DNA of 64,000 bases, taken from Pelomonas aquatica. Its GTDB lineage: Bacteria > Pseudomonadota > Gammaproteobacteria > Burkholderiales > Burkholderiaceae_C. The stretch is taken from contig NZ_JAPPUW010000002.1 of assembly GCF_026712205.1 (NCBI RefSeq), positions 62,001 to 126,000 on the forward strand, given 5' to 3'. Below the pieces are notes generated by a model. That model was not told the DNA's origin and ran no database searches. It worked only from the letters and a program-made list of their open reading frames with translations. Shown here in pieces: positions 27,139 through 32,768 of this stretch (its first letter is position 1; every line of letters starts with the position of its first letter). The position numbers and the translations under genes are program-made.

Positions 27139-27460
27139 TTTCGTTGACATGCGCAATATTGCGGTGCAACAATCCTGACATCCAAACTTCGGAGCCCCGT
27201 GCGTGGACAGTGCCAGTTGTTGCAGTGAATCGAAGCGAGCCGTGATGGCCGCCAGCTGCCCAGCCGTCTGACGCCGACTCCCCGGCGTTCGACCTGAGCG
27301 GTCCGAGCGCCCATTGCCCCGCCCTGTTCCAGGGCCTGCTTCTCCCTCGTTTCACTGAAGCTGCCGACCCGTGGCGTGCATCAGCGCGCCGCTGGTCAGC
27401 GCGTGATCTTCTGCCTTGTGCATGCATGGTGGTGGCCGGCCTTGCCCCGGAGAACCGCCC
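27139..27460. other. 5' leader of the magnesium locus, upstream part
   Basis: This 322-bp gap starts with the promoter at 27144-27173 and continues as untranslated leader up to the first short leader ORF. One micro-ORF (ATG at 27244, eight codons) is present but has only a weak SD and may be chance. I could not fit a known magnesium or manganese riboswitch (M-box, yybP-ykoY) to the sequence by eye. Confidence 0.5.
27144..27173 (+). promoter_or_regulatory. Promoter with perfect 12-bp palindrome in its spacer
   Basis: TTGACA (27144-27149) and AACAAT (27168-27173) are 18 bases apart, and TGC before the -10 gives an extended -10. The spacer contains the perfect palindrome CGCAATATTGCG (27152-27163), ideally placed for a dimeric repressor or a spacer-distorting activator. 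Downstream lie the leader ORFs and transporter genes. Confidence 0.7.
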
Positions 27461-27634: not shown

Positions 27635-27669
27635 CGGGCGGCCCCGATTCAACACCGACAGGAGAACGC

Positions 27670-27771
27670 ATGGACCCCGACCCTAGTTGGCGCCGACGCG
27701 CGCCCCTCCCCACCCCGCTTTCCCTTTCCATCCCGAACCCGGCACCGCCGCGGAGGGCTGCGCGCGCCTGA
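27670..27771 (+). CDS. Leader ORF 2: MgtL-like peptide beginning MDPDP
   Basis: A 33-codon ORF with a strong SD (ACAGGAGAACGC). It starts MDPDPSWRRRAPLPTPL; enterobacterial MgtL starts with Met-Glu-Pro-Asp-Pro and also contains PLP and an Arg triplet. In E. coli, acidic/Pro N-termini destabilise the translating ribosome when magnesium is low, which raises mgtA transcription. The same design upstream of an NRAMP/porin/MgtC operon suggests a magnesium-sensing leader. A C-rich, G-poor tract (27701-27740) lies inside the ORF, like a Rho-loading site. The similarity is in the first residues only and could be convergent. Confidence 0.7.
   Translation: MDPDPSWRRRAPLPTPLSLSIPNPAPPRRAARA
27701..27740 (+). 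promoter_or_regulatory. C-rich, G-poor tract, possible Rho utilisation site
   Basis: Twenty-five C and only three G in 40 bases, inside leader ORF 2. It contrasts with the G-rich surroundings. In enterobacterial mgtA and mgtC leaders Rho loads on similar tracts when translation of the leader ORF is altered. Rho dependence here is inferred. Confidence 0.5.
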
Positions 27772-27808
27772 GCGCGACGGTTTCTCCGTGCTGCCGCAGG
27801 AGAAACCG

Positions 27809-27946
27809 ATGACCTTCAAGTTCCACGCGCTGGCCGCCGCCAGCTTCATGGGCCGCCTGCTCCGGCGCGCTCTCCGCCCGACCCTCCAGCAGCCTCAGCG
27901 CCCGGCCTACGGCCTGCTCGTCGACGGCCTCGGTGCGGGCCGCTGA
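27809..27946 (+). CDS. Leader ORF 3 of the magnesium locus, basic amphipathic peptide
   Basis: A 45-codon ORF with an SD (GCAGGAGAAACCG) ending 27 bases before the NRAMP-like gene. The peptide begins MTFKFHALAAASFMGRLLRR, a hydrophobic segment followed by Arg pairs, then PTLQQPQRPAYGLLVDGLG. It could be a small membrane-active peptide or a translational coupler for the transporter gene. No family was recognised. Confidence 0.55.
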   Translation: MTFKFHALAAASFMGRLLRRALRPTLQQPQRPAYGLLVDGLGAGR

Positions 27947-27973
27947 ACCCGCCGCGAGGAGGAGGAGAGTCCC

Positions 27974-29623
27974 ATGGATTCCACGACCCTGCCGCCCCGC
28001 AACGGCGCCGTGCTGGATGCTGCCCATGTCGGCGACATCCGCGGCGCGCTCGGGACCATCAAGCTCGGCGACGCCGGCCATGCGCGTGGCCCGATGCGGC
28101 GCCTCAAGACCCTGCTGGCCATCCTGGGGCCGGGCCTGATCGTGATGGTCGGCGACAACGACGCCGGCGCCTTCTCGACCTATGCCCAGGCCGGGCAGAA
28201 CTACGGCACCACGCTGCTGTGGACGCTCGCGCTGCTGATCCCGGTGCTCTACGTAAACCAGGAGATGGTGCTGCGCCTGGGCGCGGTGACGGGGGTGGGC
28301 CATGCGCGGCTGATCCTCGAACGCTTCGGCAGGTTCTGGGGCGCCTTCAGCGTCGTCGACCTGTTCCTGCTGAACGCGCTGACCCTCGTCACCGAGTTCA
28401 TCGGCATCGCGCTCGGCCTGGACTACCTGGGCATTCCGCGCGCGCCGGGCGTCGGCATCGCGGCCGTGCTCATCATGCTGGCGGCCAGCACCGGCGACTT
28501 CCGCCGCTTCGAGCGCTTCGCCCTGAGCCTGGTGCTGGGCAGCCTGGTGCTGCTGCCGCTGTTCGTCATGGTGCATCCGCCGATGGGCCAGCTGGTGCGC
28601 GACTTCGCCACGGTGCAGATGCCCAGGGACGGCAGGCTCAGCGACGTGATGCTGCTCATCATCGGCATCGTCGGCACGACGATCGCGCCGTGGCAGCTGT
28701 TCTTCCAGCAGAGCTATGTCATCGACAAGCGCATCACGCCGCGCTTCATCCGCTACGAGCGCCTGGACCTCTGGCTGGGCATCGTGCTGGTGGTGCTGGG
28801 CGCGGTCGCGCTGATCGGCCTGGTGGCCCATTGCTTTGCCGGCAAGCCCGAGGCGGGCCGGTTCAGCGATGCGCTGGCCGTGGCCCGGGGCCTGGCCCAG
28901 TACCACGGCCATGGGGCGGGCACGCTGTTCGCGCTGGCGCTGATCGACGCCAGCGTGATCGGCGCGGCGGCCGTGTCGCTGTCCACGGCCTATGCGGTGG
29001 GCGATGTGCTGGCGGTCAACCATTCGCTGCACCGCAAGCCGGGCGAGGCCAAGGGCTTCTACCTCGTCTACTGCGGGCTGATCGTGCTGGCCGCGGCCCT
29101 GGTGCTGCTGCCCGGCGTGCCGCTCGGCCTGCTGACCAATGCCGTGCAGACCCTGGCCGGCGTGCTGCTGCCCAGCGCCTCGGTCTTCCTGCTGCTGCTT
29201 TGCAACGACCGCCAGGTGCTGGGCCCCTGGGTCAACGGCCGCTGGACCAATGCCTTCACGTCGGCCGTCGTCGCGGTGCTGGTGATCCTGTCGACCGTGC
29301 TGACGGCCGCGGTGATCTTCCCCGACATCGGCGAGGACCAGATCGTCGCGATACTGGTCGGCGGCGGCCTGCTGGCCCTGCTGATCGGCCTGGCGACCCT
29401 GGCGACGCGCGCCCATCGCGCGGCCGCCCTGCCCCGGCCGCGCGACGATGCGCGGCCCGCCAGCCCGCGGCAGATGGAGCAATGGCGCATGCCGCCGCTG
29501 CATCTGCTGAGGCCGGCGCAACTCACGCCGACGACGCGGCTGTGGATGGGCGTGCTGCGCCTGTATCTGCTGCTGGCCGTCGCGATGGTCGTGCTGCGCG
29601 TGCTGCAGCTGGCCTTGGCCTGA
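27974..29623 (+). CDS. NRAMP-family transporter, NRMT-like variant, probable magnesium importer
   Basis: A 549-residue, eleven-helix NRAMP protein. In helix 1 the canonical metal-site DPGN is replaced by DAGA (residues 63-66, in GDNDAGAFSTYAQAG), keeping the Asp but losing the Asn. In helix 6 the Met-Pro-His motif reads APW (residues 238-240, in GTTIAPWQLFFQQS), so the soft sulfur ligand that favours manganese and iron is gone. Loss of the Met is the hallmark of NRAMP-related magnesium transporters. The MgtL-like leader and the MgtC and CDF genes downstream support magnesium. The substrate is not proven. A strong SD (GAGGAGGAGGAGAG) precedes ATG at 27974. Confidence 0.8.
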   Translation: MDSTTLPPRNGAVLDAAHVGDIRGALGTIKLGDAGHARGPMRRLKTLLAILGPGLIVMVGDNDAGAFSTYAQAGQNYGTTLLWTLALLIPVLYVNQEMVLRLGAVTGVGHARLILERFGRFWGAFSVVDLFLLNALTLVTEFIGIALGLDYLGIPRAPGVGIAAVLIMLAASTGDFRRFERFALSLVLGSLVLLPLFVMVHPPMGQLVRDFATVQMPRDGRLSDVMLLIIGIVGTTIAPWQLFFQQSYVIDKRITPRFIRYERLDLWLGIVLVVLGAVALIGLVAHCFAGKPEAGRFSDALAVARGLAQYHGHGAGTLFALALIDASVIGAAAVSLSTAYAVGDVLAVNHSLHRKPGEAKGFYLVYCGLIVLAAALVLLPGVPLGLLTNAVQTLAGVLLPSASVFLLLLCNDRQVLGPWVNGRWTNAFTSAVVAVLVILSTVLTAAVIFPDIGEDQIVAILVGGGLLALLIGLATLATRAHRAAALPRPRDDARPASPRQMEQWRMPPLHLLRPAQLTPTTRLWMGVLRLYLLLAVAMVVLRVLQLALA

Positions 29624-29665: not shown

Positions 29666-31003
29666 ATGACGATGACGAATCTCTTCAACATGACGGCCTG
29701 GCTGCCGGCCCTGCTCCTCGGCGCCGGCCTGAGCCCCATCGCCCAGGCGCAGGACAGCCAGGGCCAGCAAGACTGGAACTGGCATCTGCAGGCCACCAGC
29801 ACGACGCAAAGGCATGGCGGCTTCAACTCGCCCTATGCCGGCGCCAACAGCCTGCTGCCGCGCGAAAGCGCCAAGGAGACGCTGGACGCCACGCTCTTCC
29901 TCGGCCTGCGGCTGTGGCAGGGCGGCGAGTTCTATATCAACCCCGAGCTCGACCAGGGTTACGGCCTGGCCAACACGATGGGCGTCGCCGGCTTCACCAG
30001 CGGCGCCGCCTACAAGGTCGGCCACGACAGCGTCTACGGCCGCCTGCACCGCGCCTTCCTGCGCCAGACGATTGCGCTGGGCGACGCGACCAGCGGGGTG
30101 GAAACCGGCGCCAACCAGCTGGCGGGCGCCCGCCCGGATGAGCGGCTCACGCTGACGCTGGGCAAGATCTCGGTCGCCGACCTGTTCGACGGCAACAGCT
30201 ACGCCCACGATCCGCGCGCCGACTTCCTGAACTGGTCCATCATCGACGGCGGCGCGTTCGACTACGCCGCCGATTCCTGGGGCTTCAGCTCGGGCGCGAC
30301 GGCCGAATGGGTCCGCGGCGACTGGTCGCTGCGGGCCGGCTTCTATGCGATGTCCAAGCTGCCGAACGGCGAAACCCTGGACGGCCGCTTCGGTCAACAC
30401 CAGTGGCTGCTGGAGGCCGAGCGCCGCTTCCGCTGGATGGGCCGCCAGGGCGCAGCGCGGCTGCTGGGCTTCGTGACCGAGGCGCGCATGGCGAGCTATG
30501 CCGACGCCTTCGGCCAGGCCCAGGGCGGCCAGATGCCGGCGGACCTCACGCCGCTGCGCCGGCTCCAGCGCAAGCACGGTCTGGCCTTCAATGCCGAGCA
30601 GGAACTGGCCGACGGCGTCGGCGCCTTCGTCCGCTACAGCTGGAACGATGGCCGCACCGAGGCCTACGACTTCACCGACATCAACCGCTCGGTCGCGGCC
30701 GGCCTGCAGCTCAAGGGCGGCCTGTGGCGGCAGCCTGAGCACACGCTGGGCGCGGCGCTGGCGGCCAACGACCTGTCGAGCCCGGCACGGCAGTTCTTCG
30801 CGGCCGGCGGACTCGGCATCCTGGTCGGGGACGGCATGCTGCCGCACTACGCGACGGAACAGGTCTTCGAGGTCTTCTACAAGGTTGCGCTGGGCCGCTT
30901 CCTGTCCGTGACCGGCGACTACCAGCATGTGCGCCACCCGGCCTACAACGCCGACCGCGGGCCGGTGTCGATCCTGGCATTGCGCCTGCACGCGGAGTAT
31001 TGA
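29666..31003 (+). CDS. OprB-family carbohydrate-type porin
   Basis: A 445-residue outer membrane protein. The signal peptide spans residues ~1-28 (LLGAGLSPIAQA). OprB family landmarks are TTQRHGGFNSPYAGANSLLP, a GLRLWQGGEFYINPE strand, GQGYGL-type turns, TLGKISVADLFDGNSYAHDP and DFLNWSIIDGGAFDYAAD, with a terminal strand ending in Tyr. Similar porins sit next to NRAMP and MgtC genes in other beta- and gammaproteobacteria and may admit metal ions or small solutes. It starts 42 bases after the transporter and ends 2 bases before mgtC. Confidence 0.82.
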   Translation: MTMTNLFNMTAWLPALLLGAGLSPIAQAQDSQGQQDWNWHLQATSTTQRHGGFNSPYAGANSLLPRESAKETLDATLFLGLRLWQGGEFYINPELDQGYGLANTMGVAGFTSGAAYKVGHDSVYGRLHRAFLRQTIALGDATSGVETGANQLAGARPDERLTLTLGKISVADLFDGNSYAHDPRADFLNWSIIDGGAFDYAADSWGFSSGATAEWVRGDWSLRAGFYAMSKLPNGETLDGRFGQHQWLLEAERRFRWMGRQGAARLLGFVTEARMASYADAFGQAQGGQMPADLTPLRRLQRKHGLAFNAEQELADGVGAFVRYSWNDGRTEAYDFTDINRSVAAGLQLKGGLWRQPEHTLGAALAANDLSSPARQFFAAGGLGILVGDGMLPHYATEQVFEVFYKVALGRFLSVTGDYQHVRHPAYNADRGPVSILALRLHAEY

Positions 31004-31005
31004 CG

Positions 31006-31722
31006 ATGCAAGCCCTGAACAACCTCAACCTCGAGTCGCTGCTGGACACCCTGTTCAGCGTGAGCGCCGCCTTCGCCCTCGGCGGGCTGATCGGGCTGGA
31101 GCGCCAATGGCGCCAGCGCACGGCCGGGCTGCGCACCAATGCACTGGTGGCCGTGGCCTCGGCGGTCTTCGTGGACATGGCCCAGCGGCTCGGCGGCAAC
31201 GCAAGCGCCGTGCACGTGGTGGCCTATGTCGTCTCGGGCGTGGGCTTCCTCGGCGCCGGCGCGATCATGAAGGAAGGGGCCAATGTCATCGGCCTGAACA
31301 CCGCGGCCACGCTGTGGGGATCGGCGGCCGTGGGCGCCTGTGCCGGCGCGGACCTGCTGGGCGAAGCCGTCGTGGCCTCGCTGTTCGTGCTGGCCAGCAA
31401 CACGCTGCTGCGCCCGGTGGCGAACCGCATCAACCGCCGGCCGGTGGAGGAGGAATCCAGCGAGGCCACCTACACGGTCTATGTGATCTGCGGGCGCGAC
31501 CGGCAGGCCGAGGTGCACGAGCGCCTGATCGAGCTGCTGGAGGAGGCGAGCTATCCGGCGCGCGCGGTGGATCAGCACCCCTTCGGCCAGAACGACGCCG
31601 AGATCGGGGCCACGCTCTACGCCACCGCCGTCGTCCCTGAGCAGCTCGACGAGGTGACCGCGCGCCTGGAGGCCACGCCGGGCGTGGTCCAGGCGTTCTG
31701 GAACGCCAGCGCCGAGGAGTGA
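31006..31722 (+). CDS. MgtC/SapB-family membrane protein
   Basis: A 238-residue protein. The N-terminal ~135 residues form four to five membrane helices with MgtC hallmarks: GGLIGLERQWRQRTAGLRTN, VVAYVVSGVGFLGAGAIMKE and NVIGLNTAATLWGSAAVG. The C-terminal ~85 residues (TYTVYVICGRDRQAEVHERL) form an ACT-like cytosolic domain. MgtC proteins act in magnesium limitation, by inhibiting the F1F0 ATPase in Salmonella rather than by transport. Two bases separate it from the porin, so co-expression is expected. Confidence 0.88.
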   Translation: MQALNNLNLESLLDTLFSVSAAFALGGLIGLERQWRQRTAGLRTNALVAVASAVFVDMAQRLGGNASAVHVVAYVVSGVGFLGAGAIMKEGANVIGLNTAATLWGSAAVGACAGADLLGEAVVASLFVLASNTLLRPVANRINRRPVEEESSEATYTVYVICGRDRQAEVHERLIELLEEASYPARAVDQHPFGQNDAEIGATLYATAVVPEQLDEVTARLEATPGVVQAFWNASAEE

Positions 31723-31814: not shown

Positions 31815-32768
31815 ATGCAGCCCATACCCGACGATTCCGAGGACACCGAACACAGCGCGGCCGAGCGCGCCGCCGCCGCATCCCGCAGCACCTGGGTCAG
31901 CGTCATCGTCAACCTGGCGCTCACGTCGACCCAGATCACCGCCGGCCTGCTGACCAAGTCCCAGGGCCTGGTGGCCGACGGCGTGCATTCGCTGTCCGAC
32001 CTGATCGCCGACTTCGTCGTGCTGCTGGCCAGCCACCACAGCCGGAAGGACGCCGACGCGGACCACCCCTATGGCCACCACCGCTACGAGACGGCGGCCT
32101 CGCTGGTGCTGGGCCTGCTGCTGCTCGCCGTGGGCCTGGGCATGCTGGGCTCGGCCATCACCAAGCTGCAGCAGCCCGAGGCCATCCCGCAGGTGCACAT
32201 GGCCGCGCTGTGGGTGGCGCTCGGCGCGCTGACGGCCAAGGAGCTGCTGTTCCGCTACATGCTGGCCGTGGCCAAGCGGGTCAAGTCCAGCATGCTGGTG
32301 GCCAATGCCTGGCATGCGCGCTCGGACGCCGCGTCCTCGCTGGTGGTCGGCATCGGCATCATCGGCAACCTCGCGGGCTACCCCATCCTCGACCCCATCG
32401 CCGCGGCCATCGTCGGCTTCATGGTCACCCGGATGGGCTGGGAATTCGGCTGGGATGCCCTGCACGACCTGATGGACAGGGCCGTCGACGAGGAGGAGGT
32501 CGCGGCCATCCGCCTCACGCTGGTGGAGACGCCCGGCATCATGGGCGTGCACGACATCCGCACCCGCAAGATGGGCGACATGGTCGTCGTGGACGCCCAC
32601 ATCGAGGTGGACGCGGCGCTGACCGTGGAGGCCGGCCACGAGATCGCCGTCGAAGCGCGGCGCCGCGTGCTGCAGCGCCACCGCGTGCTGAACCTGATGA
32701 CCCATGTGGACCCGTGGCGCCGACCGGACGGGGACCACGACGGGGTCGCGGCCGCGACGCGCGCTTGA
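31815..32768 (+). CDS. Cation diffusion facilitator (CDF) exporter
   Basis: A 317-residue CDF protein with six membrane helices. The metal-site motifs are ADGVHSLSDLIADF in helix 2 and WHARSDAASSLVVG in helix 5, each giving the D-x-x-x-D or H-x-x-x-D set of zinc/manganese/iron exporters; the loop HPYGHHRYE is also present. The C-terminal cytoplasmic domain (residues ~210-300) shows VHDIRTRKMGDMVVVDAHIEV. It may keep transition metals low while magnesium enters. A short 92-base gap after mgtC could hold an own promoter. Confidence 0.87.
   Translation: MQPIPDDSEDTEHSAAERAAAASRSTWVSVIVNLALTSTQITAGLLTKSQGLVADGVHSLSDLIADFVVLLASHHSRKDADADHPYGHHRYETAASLVLGLLLLAVGLGMLGSAITKLQQPEAIPQVHMAALWVALGALTAKELLFRYMLAVAKRVKSSMLVANAWHARSDAASSLVVGIGIIGNLAGYPILDPIAAAIVGFMVTRMGWEFGWDALHDLMDRAVDEEEVAAIRLTLVETPGIMGVHDIRTRKMGDMVVVDAHIEVDAALTVEAGHEIAVEARRRVLQRHRVLNLMTHVDPWRRPDGDHDGVAAATRA

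Follow-up and report, generated by a model that had tools for sequence, protein, structure and literature searches.

The window, i.e. the whole stretch of 64 kb that was analyzed, belongs to a genome of 5.1 Mb and contains a gene encoding an NRAMP-related transporter followed by genes for an OprB-type porin, an MgtC family protein, and a CDF cation efflux protein (Table 1). The closest named matches of the transporter are encoded at two loci, L024 and L025, of a single Roseateles puraquae genome (90 and 89% identity), and the porin, MgtC, and CDF genes follow the NRAMP gene in the same order in both copies. MgtC relatives were present somewhere in 19 of the 80 NRAMP loci searched. Upstream, a sigma-70-like site, matched in the R. 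puraquae copies by similar sites at −781 and −783, is the likely start of the leader RNA, which from this predicted promoter would extend for about 800 nt and carry three small ORFs ahead of the NRAMP start codon. Pfam and NCBIfam gave no family for any of these three ORFs. As a counterpart of the first one, a 56-aa ORF ending in ..TAWPTLRLRCALRQPA was found at −503 in L024 and a similar one in L025, the R. puraquae ending being WPTxRLR.

The ORF that follows, hereafter ORF1, had been picked out by a sequence-only reading of this DNA as a 33-codon ORF with a strong Shine-Dalgarno (SD) sequence, located about 200 bases before the transporter gene and overlapping a C-rich, G-poor tract. This description was confirmed, the distance from the ORF1 stop to the NRAMP ATG being 202 nt and the C minus G value of the tract being reached by 0.0125% of all 60-nt windows on the plus strand of the 64 kb. 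The tract is weaker in the relatives, where the best 60 nt inside ORF1 gave 0.33 (L024) and 0.23 (L025), and we do not take it as a firm trait of the family described below.

Table 1. Leader and operon features, numbered by position in the window
Feature	Position	Strand	Basis
Promoter-like site TTGACA-18-AACAAT, TG before second hexamer	27144..27173	+	10/12 matches; shuffle mean 0.1
First small leader ORF, 57 aa	27461..27634	+	open frame
SD of ORF1, GACAGGAG	27657..27664	+	CAGGAG kept in R. puraquae
ORF1, putative leader peptide MDPDPSWRRR..., 33 aa, MDPDPSWRRRAPLPTPLSLSIPNPAPPRRAARA	27670..27771	+	open frame and conservation in R. puraquae
Ser AGT, codon 6 of ORF1, in frame, family signature	27685..27687	+	codon counts
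C-rich, G-poor tract inside ORF1, rut-like	27693..27752	+	C minus G = 0.40
Region 1 (CGCGGAGG), possible pairing with 27783-27790 (UCUCCGUG)	27749..27756	+	complementarity p 0.15, this locus alone
Hairpin 2:3 burying the ORF2 SD (CGGTTTCTCC / GGAGAAACCG)	27778..27808	+	z −3.4 for 27772-27830
ORF2, second small ORF, 45 aa, MTFKF...YGLLVDGLGAGR	27809..27946	+	open frame; no indel versus R. puraquae
Possible hairpin around ORF2 stop, overlapping start of NRAMP SD	27928..27959	+	fold of 27925-27990, z −0.78, weak
NRAMP-related transporter, closest to Mg2+ type (NRMT)	27974..29623	+	PF01566, 1.1e-77; PDB 7qia, 2.2e-52
OprB-type porin	29666..31003	+	PF04966
MgtC family protein	31000..31722	+	PF02308, PF21770
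CDF cation efflux protein	31815..32768	+	PF01545, TIGR01297

Transporter type and conservation of ORF1

The best PDB match of the window transporter was EleNRMT (7qia), the best chain named MntH reaching 1.6e-13. According to an excerpt of PMC8806188, NRMTs carry TxxA/T in place of A/CxxM in helix 6 and DxxG in place of DxxN in helix 1. The window protein shares with EleNRMT the NRAMP fold and, in helix 6, a TTIAPW segment aligned with the TTIAPW of 7qia, which contains the TxxA motif and Pro-Trp and lacks the binding-site Met. However, its helix 1 motif is D-A-G-A (DxxA), with neither the Asn of DxxN nor the Gly of the DxxG found in NRMTs. In line with the sequence-only reading, which had assigned magnesium-type NRAMP features to it, the transporter appears to be closest to the NRMT type, and its closest solved structure together with the MgtC neighbor suggests that it transports Mg2+.

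The same reading had staked itself on conservation of the N-terminal codons of ORF1 in relatives, and these codons proved identical in both R. puraquae copies: ATGGACCCCGACCCTAGTTGGCGCC, which spans codons 2-8, is unchanged at the nucleotide level in the three loci, all of which have the MDPDP start that had been likened to the EPDP type. ORF1 and ORF2 are free of indels with respect to R. puraquae, whereas the spacers do carry them. MgtL of enterobacteria, a peptide of 17 aa, has PLP and an Arg run after its N-terminus; the likeness claimed for this part of ORF1 is confined to the window, the R. puraquae peptides having RHCAPPH and RRCAPPR instead.

Leader ORFs upstream of Mg2+ importer genes

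Of the 104 ATG ORFs with an SD that were located upstream of NRAMP genes of the Mg type, 18 had an acidic/Pro N-terminus, versus 1 of 79 on the opposite strand, in a count that covered the plus strand of 72.7 kb upstream of 99 loci (5 duplicates included and 11 minus-strand loci left unturned); the background elsewhere in the same loci was 10/597 and 12/655 (848 kb per strand). Comparable SD-preceded ORFs were found before Mg-type NRAMP genes of beta-, alpha-, and gammaproteobacteria and of actinobacteria. Examples of these NRMT leaders are MDPYPSSAV in Aquitalea, MDPWPSIS in Paludibacterium, MDPSSSRPV in Pseudomonas, MDSPSRPY in Ralstonia, MDSCSSRPL in Cupriavidus, MEPGPST in Burkholderiales, MNDSDSCPLC in Burkholderia, MNDGPSRP and MGSSISG in alphaproteobacteria, and MNPGHSCPP and MKPGDSCPLS in actinobacteria. 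As judged from these comparisons, ORF1 is a member of a putative leader family and not a lone chance ORF. Five Aquitalea or Aquitalea-like loci (L026, L027, L104, L106, and L110) have two ORFs rich in Asp, Pro, and Ser (MPSD... and MDPYPSSAV...) separated by an MHYAMLLS.. ORF, which gives the impression of two stacked leader modules.

The constraint on the start of ORF1 is well illustrated by the genus Burkholderia, for which 30 loci were taken from 63 places (matches in 60 of 61 genomes) and compared in the ORF1 and ORF2 columns only. Codons 2-10 read AAC GAC AGT GAC AGT TGT CCC TTA TGC in all 30 loci bar two single changes, so that conservation includes the synonymous sites, and the ORF1 C-terminus drifts. 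In L210, this C-terminus is unlike that of the other Burkholderia loci, as after a frame change. The first 8 codons of ORF2 were also unchanged across the 30 loci. An alternative is that ORF1 encodes an ordinary small protein acting in trans, or is spurious, and its lack of family matches leaves room for this. We consider it scarcely probable, given that the N-terminal codons persist in spite of a drifting C-terminus, which in L210 looks frame-shifted, and that the enrichment of such ORFs is specific to position and strand.

Leaders of this kind were also found before genes for P-type Mg2+ ATPases, e.g. MDSCSSWPS in Cupriavidus, MDPDPSRSC in a genome of the window's own family (L154), and, among others, MDSPSSRSC, MDSSSSRSC, and MGTCSSDSC. 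The presence of the leaders before mgtA as well makes the tie to Mg2+ import strong. The window genome's own mgtA (L130) has no clear member of the family upstream. The putative family thus appears widespread before two unrelated kinds of Mg2+ importer, NRMT and MgtA, and is apparently undescribed; in a literature search with subscription journals mostly outside its scope, no such leaders were described outside enterobacteria, before NRAMP genes, or in betaproteobacteria among the matches listed.

The distribution of the leaders was then expressed as a simple rule, i.e. an SD-preceded ORF of 8-60 aa with AGT in codons 2-7 and at least 4 of residues 2-7 from DEPSGNC, applied to loci with at least 400 nt upstream (which omits 3 NRMT, 1 MgtA, and 3 MgtE loci). 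It was positive in 57 of 91 NRMT loci (reverse strand, 3/91), in 30/30 of the Burkholderia NRMT loci (0/30), and in 11/38 of the MgtA loci (0/38), leaving out 34 of the NRMT and 27 of the MgtA loci. The corresponding values were 0/17 (reverse strand, 0/17) for distant NRAMP homologs, classed as MntH-type from 25-38% identity, 0/4 (1/4) for MgtE loci, and 1/27 (0/27) for CorA loci, and random windows gave 9/426. Because the rule was formulated only after the family was known and the loci are related, these ratios weigh more than any probability. The single CorA positive, L233, lies in the Cupriavidus basilensis genome that also contains L082; its SD-preceded MGSSIGCSCCRS ORF (MGSSIGCSCC), with an AGT codon, resembles the alphaproteobacterial NRMT leaders and looks like a further family member.

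What the members of this putative family share most generally is not Asp/Pro but a Ser AGU codon that lies in frame close to the start. When all ORFs of 8-70 aa with an SD were taken, without selection, and AGT within their codons 2-9 was counted by frame, the values upstream of 94 NRMT loci were 101/14/21 (53.8 per 1000 codons), compared with 12/4/4 on the reverse strand (8.8 per 1000) and 247/154/146 elsewhere in the loci (9.4 per 1000). Part of the frame-0 excess is therefore background, because the controls also show it. Upstream of 39 MgtA loci the values were 29/6/3 (59.5 per 1000), compared with 4/5/4 on the reverse strand (7.4 per 1000) and with 9.9 and 4.6 per 1000 downstream, and the control loci gave 10.9 (the 17 MntH-type NRAMP), 0 (7 MgtE), and 7.2 (27 CorA) per 1000. 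The curated ORFs gave a frame distribution for AGT of 74/1/1, the first value being the ORF frame, with the codon standing at different distances from the start. Relative to the NRAMP genes at their own loci, codons 2-9 of 66 curated ORF1s were enriched 60-fold in AGT, 47-fold in TGT, 33-fold in TCT, 23-fold in CCT, 20-fold in CGA, and 12-fold in TTA, and just 3.5-fold in GAC and 1.0-fold in GAT. In the 39 genes of the window, AGT occurs 1.3 times per 1000 codons and makes up 2.5% of the Ser codons.

Asp and Pro had been taken as the defining feature in the sequence-only reading, which these counts do not support: in 67 curated NRAMP leaders, a set whose choice is biased, AGT occurs in codons 2-9 of 53 and an acidic residue at positions 2-8 of 45. 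Acid-driven destabilization cannot therefore be the full explanation, since 22 of the 67 have no acidic residue at these positions. The tRNAs of the window genome able to read the signature codons are Ser GCT (AGU), Cys GCA (UGU), Ser GGA and TGA (UCU), Pro GGG and TGG (CCU), and Arg ACG (CGA). Given this tRNA set and standard wobble rules, AGU and UGU would be read only via a G-U pair, which may make the start stretch slow or Mg2+-sensitive. Because Ser, Cys, and Pro codons are enriched in the first part of the leaders, these might instead respond, by attenuation, to the supply of the charged tRNAs for these amino acids, with Mg2+ playing no part. We regard such tRNA sensing as very improbable, because the downstream genes encode Mg2+-type importers of two unrelated families and not amino-acid functions, and because the residue mix changes with the clade.

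RNA structure between ORF1 and the transporter gene

In the window, the SD of ORF2 was 2.4% unpaired (97.6% paired) in the static fold, being held in the hairpin at 27778-27808 (regions 2 and 3), in which one pair is changed on both sides in R. puraquae, from U-A to G-U. The leader fold as a whole (27640-27990) is not unusual (z −0.78). ORF2 was found in 16 of 21 loci, with its start 37-85 nt past the ORF1 stop, and the other 5 gave none; a perfect stem of 7-13 bp covers its SD in 9 of these 16 and is absent from 7, in a set of 21 that was chosen partly for hairpins already seen. ORF2 ends in ..YGLL.. in several betaproteobacteria and in MNFGLLLSNLPHVTESR in Burkholderia, and the ORF2 of some alpha- and gammaproteobacteria has an 'LxCxWxxDxxTGRLxCxW'-like motif.

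The arrangement could be explained by plain translational coupling, in which finishing ORF1 opens the ORF2 SD hairpin and ORF2 in turn uncovers the NRAMP SD, Mg2+ acting elsewhere, on the promoter or on RNA folding. In agreement with this explanation, the ORF2 SD opened in the folding analysis (0.05-0.29 unpaired) only when a ribosome was placed on the stop codon of ORF1, and placing one near the stop of ORF2 raised the unpaired fraction of the NRAMP SD from 0.24 to 0.52. The hairpin 5' arm also starts within reach of the ORF1 stop, at a distance of 6-9 nt in R. puraquae and the window and of 8-13 nt in L033, L063, and L083. Nevertheless, the 5' arm begins 33, 37, and 19 nt past the stop in L039, L120, and L077, beyond the reach of a ribosome at the stop, and in Ralstonia-like NRMT leaders and several mgtA leaders the hairpin holds no SD and its 5' arm is complemented by the segment at the ORF1 stop (region 1). 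Coupling also leaves unexplained the AGU bias and the conservation of codons 2-10, synonymous sites included, while the rest of ORF1 drifts. We consider it unlikely.

The complementarity of region 1 and region 2, on which an alternative structure would depend, was assessed in the 39 of 80 leaders that have a strong hairpin. The summed pairing energy was −444.9 versus a permuted mean of −392.5, a value reached by 1 of 2000 permutations, in a test that is weakened by the related loci included. Taken one by one, 10 of the 39 leaders gave p≤0.05, but neither the window (0.15) nor L024 (0.055) nor L025 (0.205) was significant by itself, and static folding of the window leader did not favor 1:2 over 2:3 pairing. 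When ten hand-picked hairpins (nine NRMT and one MgtA) were aligned with MAFFT, 96% of the cells were paired (0/500 shuffles) and 6 of 11 pairs were changed on both sides (1/500). The Burkholderia consensus fold contains a conserved pairing over the ORF2 SD, with few double changes, and part of its conserved stretch pairs with the end of ORF1.

A metal-binding RNA element, i.e. a riboswitch that overlaps ORF1 by chance, would account for nucleotide-level conservation at synonymous sites and for this partial pairing of the Burkholderia stretch with the ORF1 end, and M-box RNAs control NrmT in Clostridium (PMC4072509, in excerpt). We find it improbable, since the frame bias of AGT in both the curated and the unselected counts is unlike that of an RNA motif and the surroundings of AGT hold little sequence information apart from a preceding pyrimidine. 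Moreover, at gathering scores Rfam had no family, M-box included, anywhere in the 64-kb window, and in 11 related loci it gave three matches, none inside the leaders. A yybP-ykoY Mn2+ riboswitch (92.6 bits) is located at L024:4097-4267, about 1.7 kb before the R. puraquae NRAMP gene and outside the leader.

Mg2+-dependent translation of ORF1 as a candidate mechanism

Leader-peptide translation serves as a Mg2+ sensor in enterobacterial mgtL, corL, and mgtQ. The explanation that we favor, with a probability of roughly 0.55, is that ORF1 belongs to a widespread family of leader peptides that act in cis on the Mg2+ importers NRMT and MgtA through Mg2+-dependent translation and an RNA switch, with the sign of MgtL and MgtQ. 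The first 5-10 codons would be hard to translate, combining ribosome-destabilizing Asp/Pro with weak-wobble codons, above all Ser AGU, and Mg2+ would set how well ribosomes pass this stretch. Arrival of a ribosome at the end of ORF1 would then select the downstream structure, region 1 near the stop competing with hairpin 2:3, and the structure chosen would decide the expression of ORF2 and the transporter. At low Mg2+, early failure in ORF1 would allow region 1 to pair with region 2 and free region 3 with the ORF2 SD, turning the importer on; at high Mg2+, ORF1 would be read through and the leader would fold into the off state. The window has the parts for such a switch, i.e. the DPDP start, a possible region 1, and hairpin 2:3 with the ORF2 SD, and the MgtC gene in the operon was also counted in its favor.

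The sequence comparisons establish ORF1 and its conservation, the association with two classes of Mg2+ importer, the codon signature, and the hairpins. From these we infer that ORF1 is translated, that it responds to Mg2+, that ribosomes fail early, and that the switch has this sign, and our confidence differs among the parts. It is good for the putative leader family and its link to Mg2+, and little for an MgtL/MgtQ sign in the window. The sign is the weak point because both the static pairing of the SD and the rut-like tract in ORF1 fit a coupling model of opposite sign: as the C-rich tract lies within ORF1, early abortion would expose it to Rho.

More tentatively, the leaders may represent a codon-built translational gauge of Mg2+ that is common to several bacterial classes of two phyla and is linked to NRMT or MgtA through a small RNA switch, a possibility that we rate as less likely than not. 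A start cluster of wobble codons, chiefly AGU and also UGU, UCU, CCU, and CGA, would slow or fail as Mg2+ falls, and acidic/Pro residues would be one route to a fragile stretch, not the sole route. If the Mg2+-sensor reading of the leaders holds, sensing of this kind would be common across proteobacteria and actinobacteria in the service of two unrelated importer families, and would bear a codon signature that was not expected, raising the question of whether the ribosome reads Mg2+ via the nascent peptide, the codon-anticodon strength, or both.

In excerpts of the literature on MgtL, its Pro and acidic residues cause inefficient elongation and high mgtA expression at low Mg2+, efficient elongation at higher Mg2+ leading to repression (PMC11552253), and its EPDP motif is ribosome-destabilizing (PMC11282234). 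ORF1 resembles MgtL of E. coli and Salmonella as a short 5'-leader ORF of a Mg2+ importer with acidic/Pro alternation at residues 2-5 and a possible role of Rho. Mutually exclusive RNA structures like those of MgtL may form as well, the region 1:region 2 signal being present across the family but weak in the window itself. It differs in that NRAMP rather than mgtA follows, in its length (33 versus 17 aa), in lacking a conserved PLP-RRR, in the Ser AGU signature, and in the second small ORF between leader and transporter. What stands of the MgtL-like interpretation is thus a putative regulatory leader ORF with conserved N-terminal codons and mgtA-linked relatives, but not homology to MgtL.

In the Salmonella MgtQ uORF of mgtC-mgtB, as excerpted from PMC8092293, the N-terminal acidic residues Asp2 and Glu5 reduce translation of MgtQ itself and favor that of mgtB via alternative stems that hide or free an SD. 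MgtQ has 8 aa, is intergenic, and controls MgtB, and its sign has been demonstrated, whereas that proposed for the window follows by inference. The M-box/NrmT system of Clostridium (PMC4072509, in excerpt) shares with the window the control of operons for Mg2+ transport or stress through their leaders, but in M-box systems Mg2+ is sensed by an aptamer, and the window has no M-box at the gathering score. In the mycobacterial M-box leader (excerpt of PMC12810186), the likeness extends to a uORF1 rich in rare codons and a platform that can mask the SD of uORF2, which is conserved.
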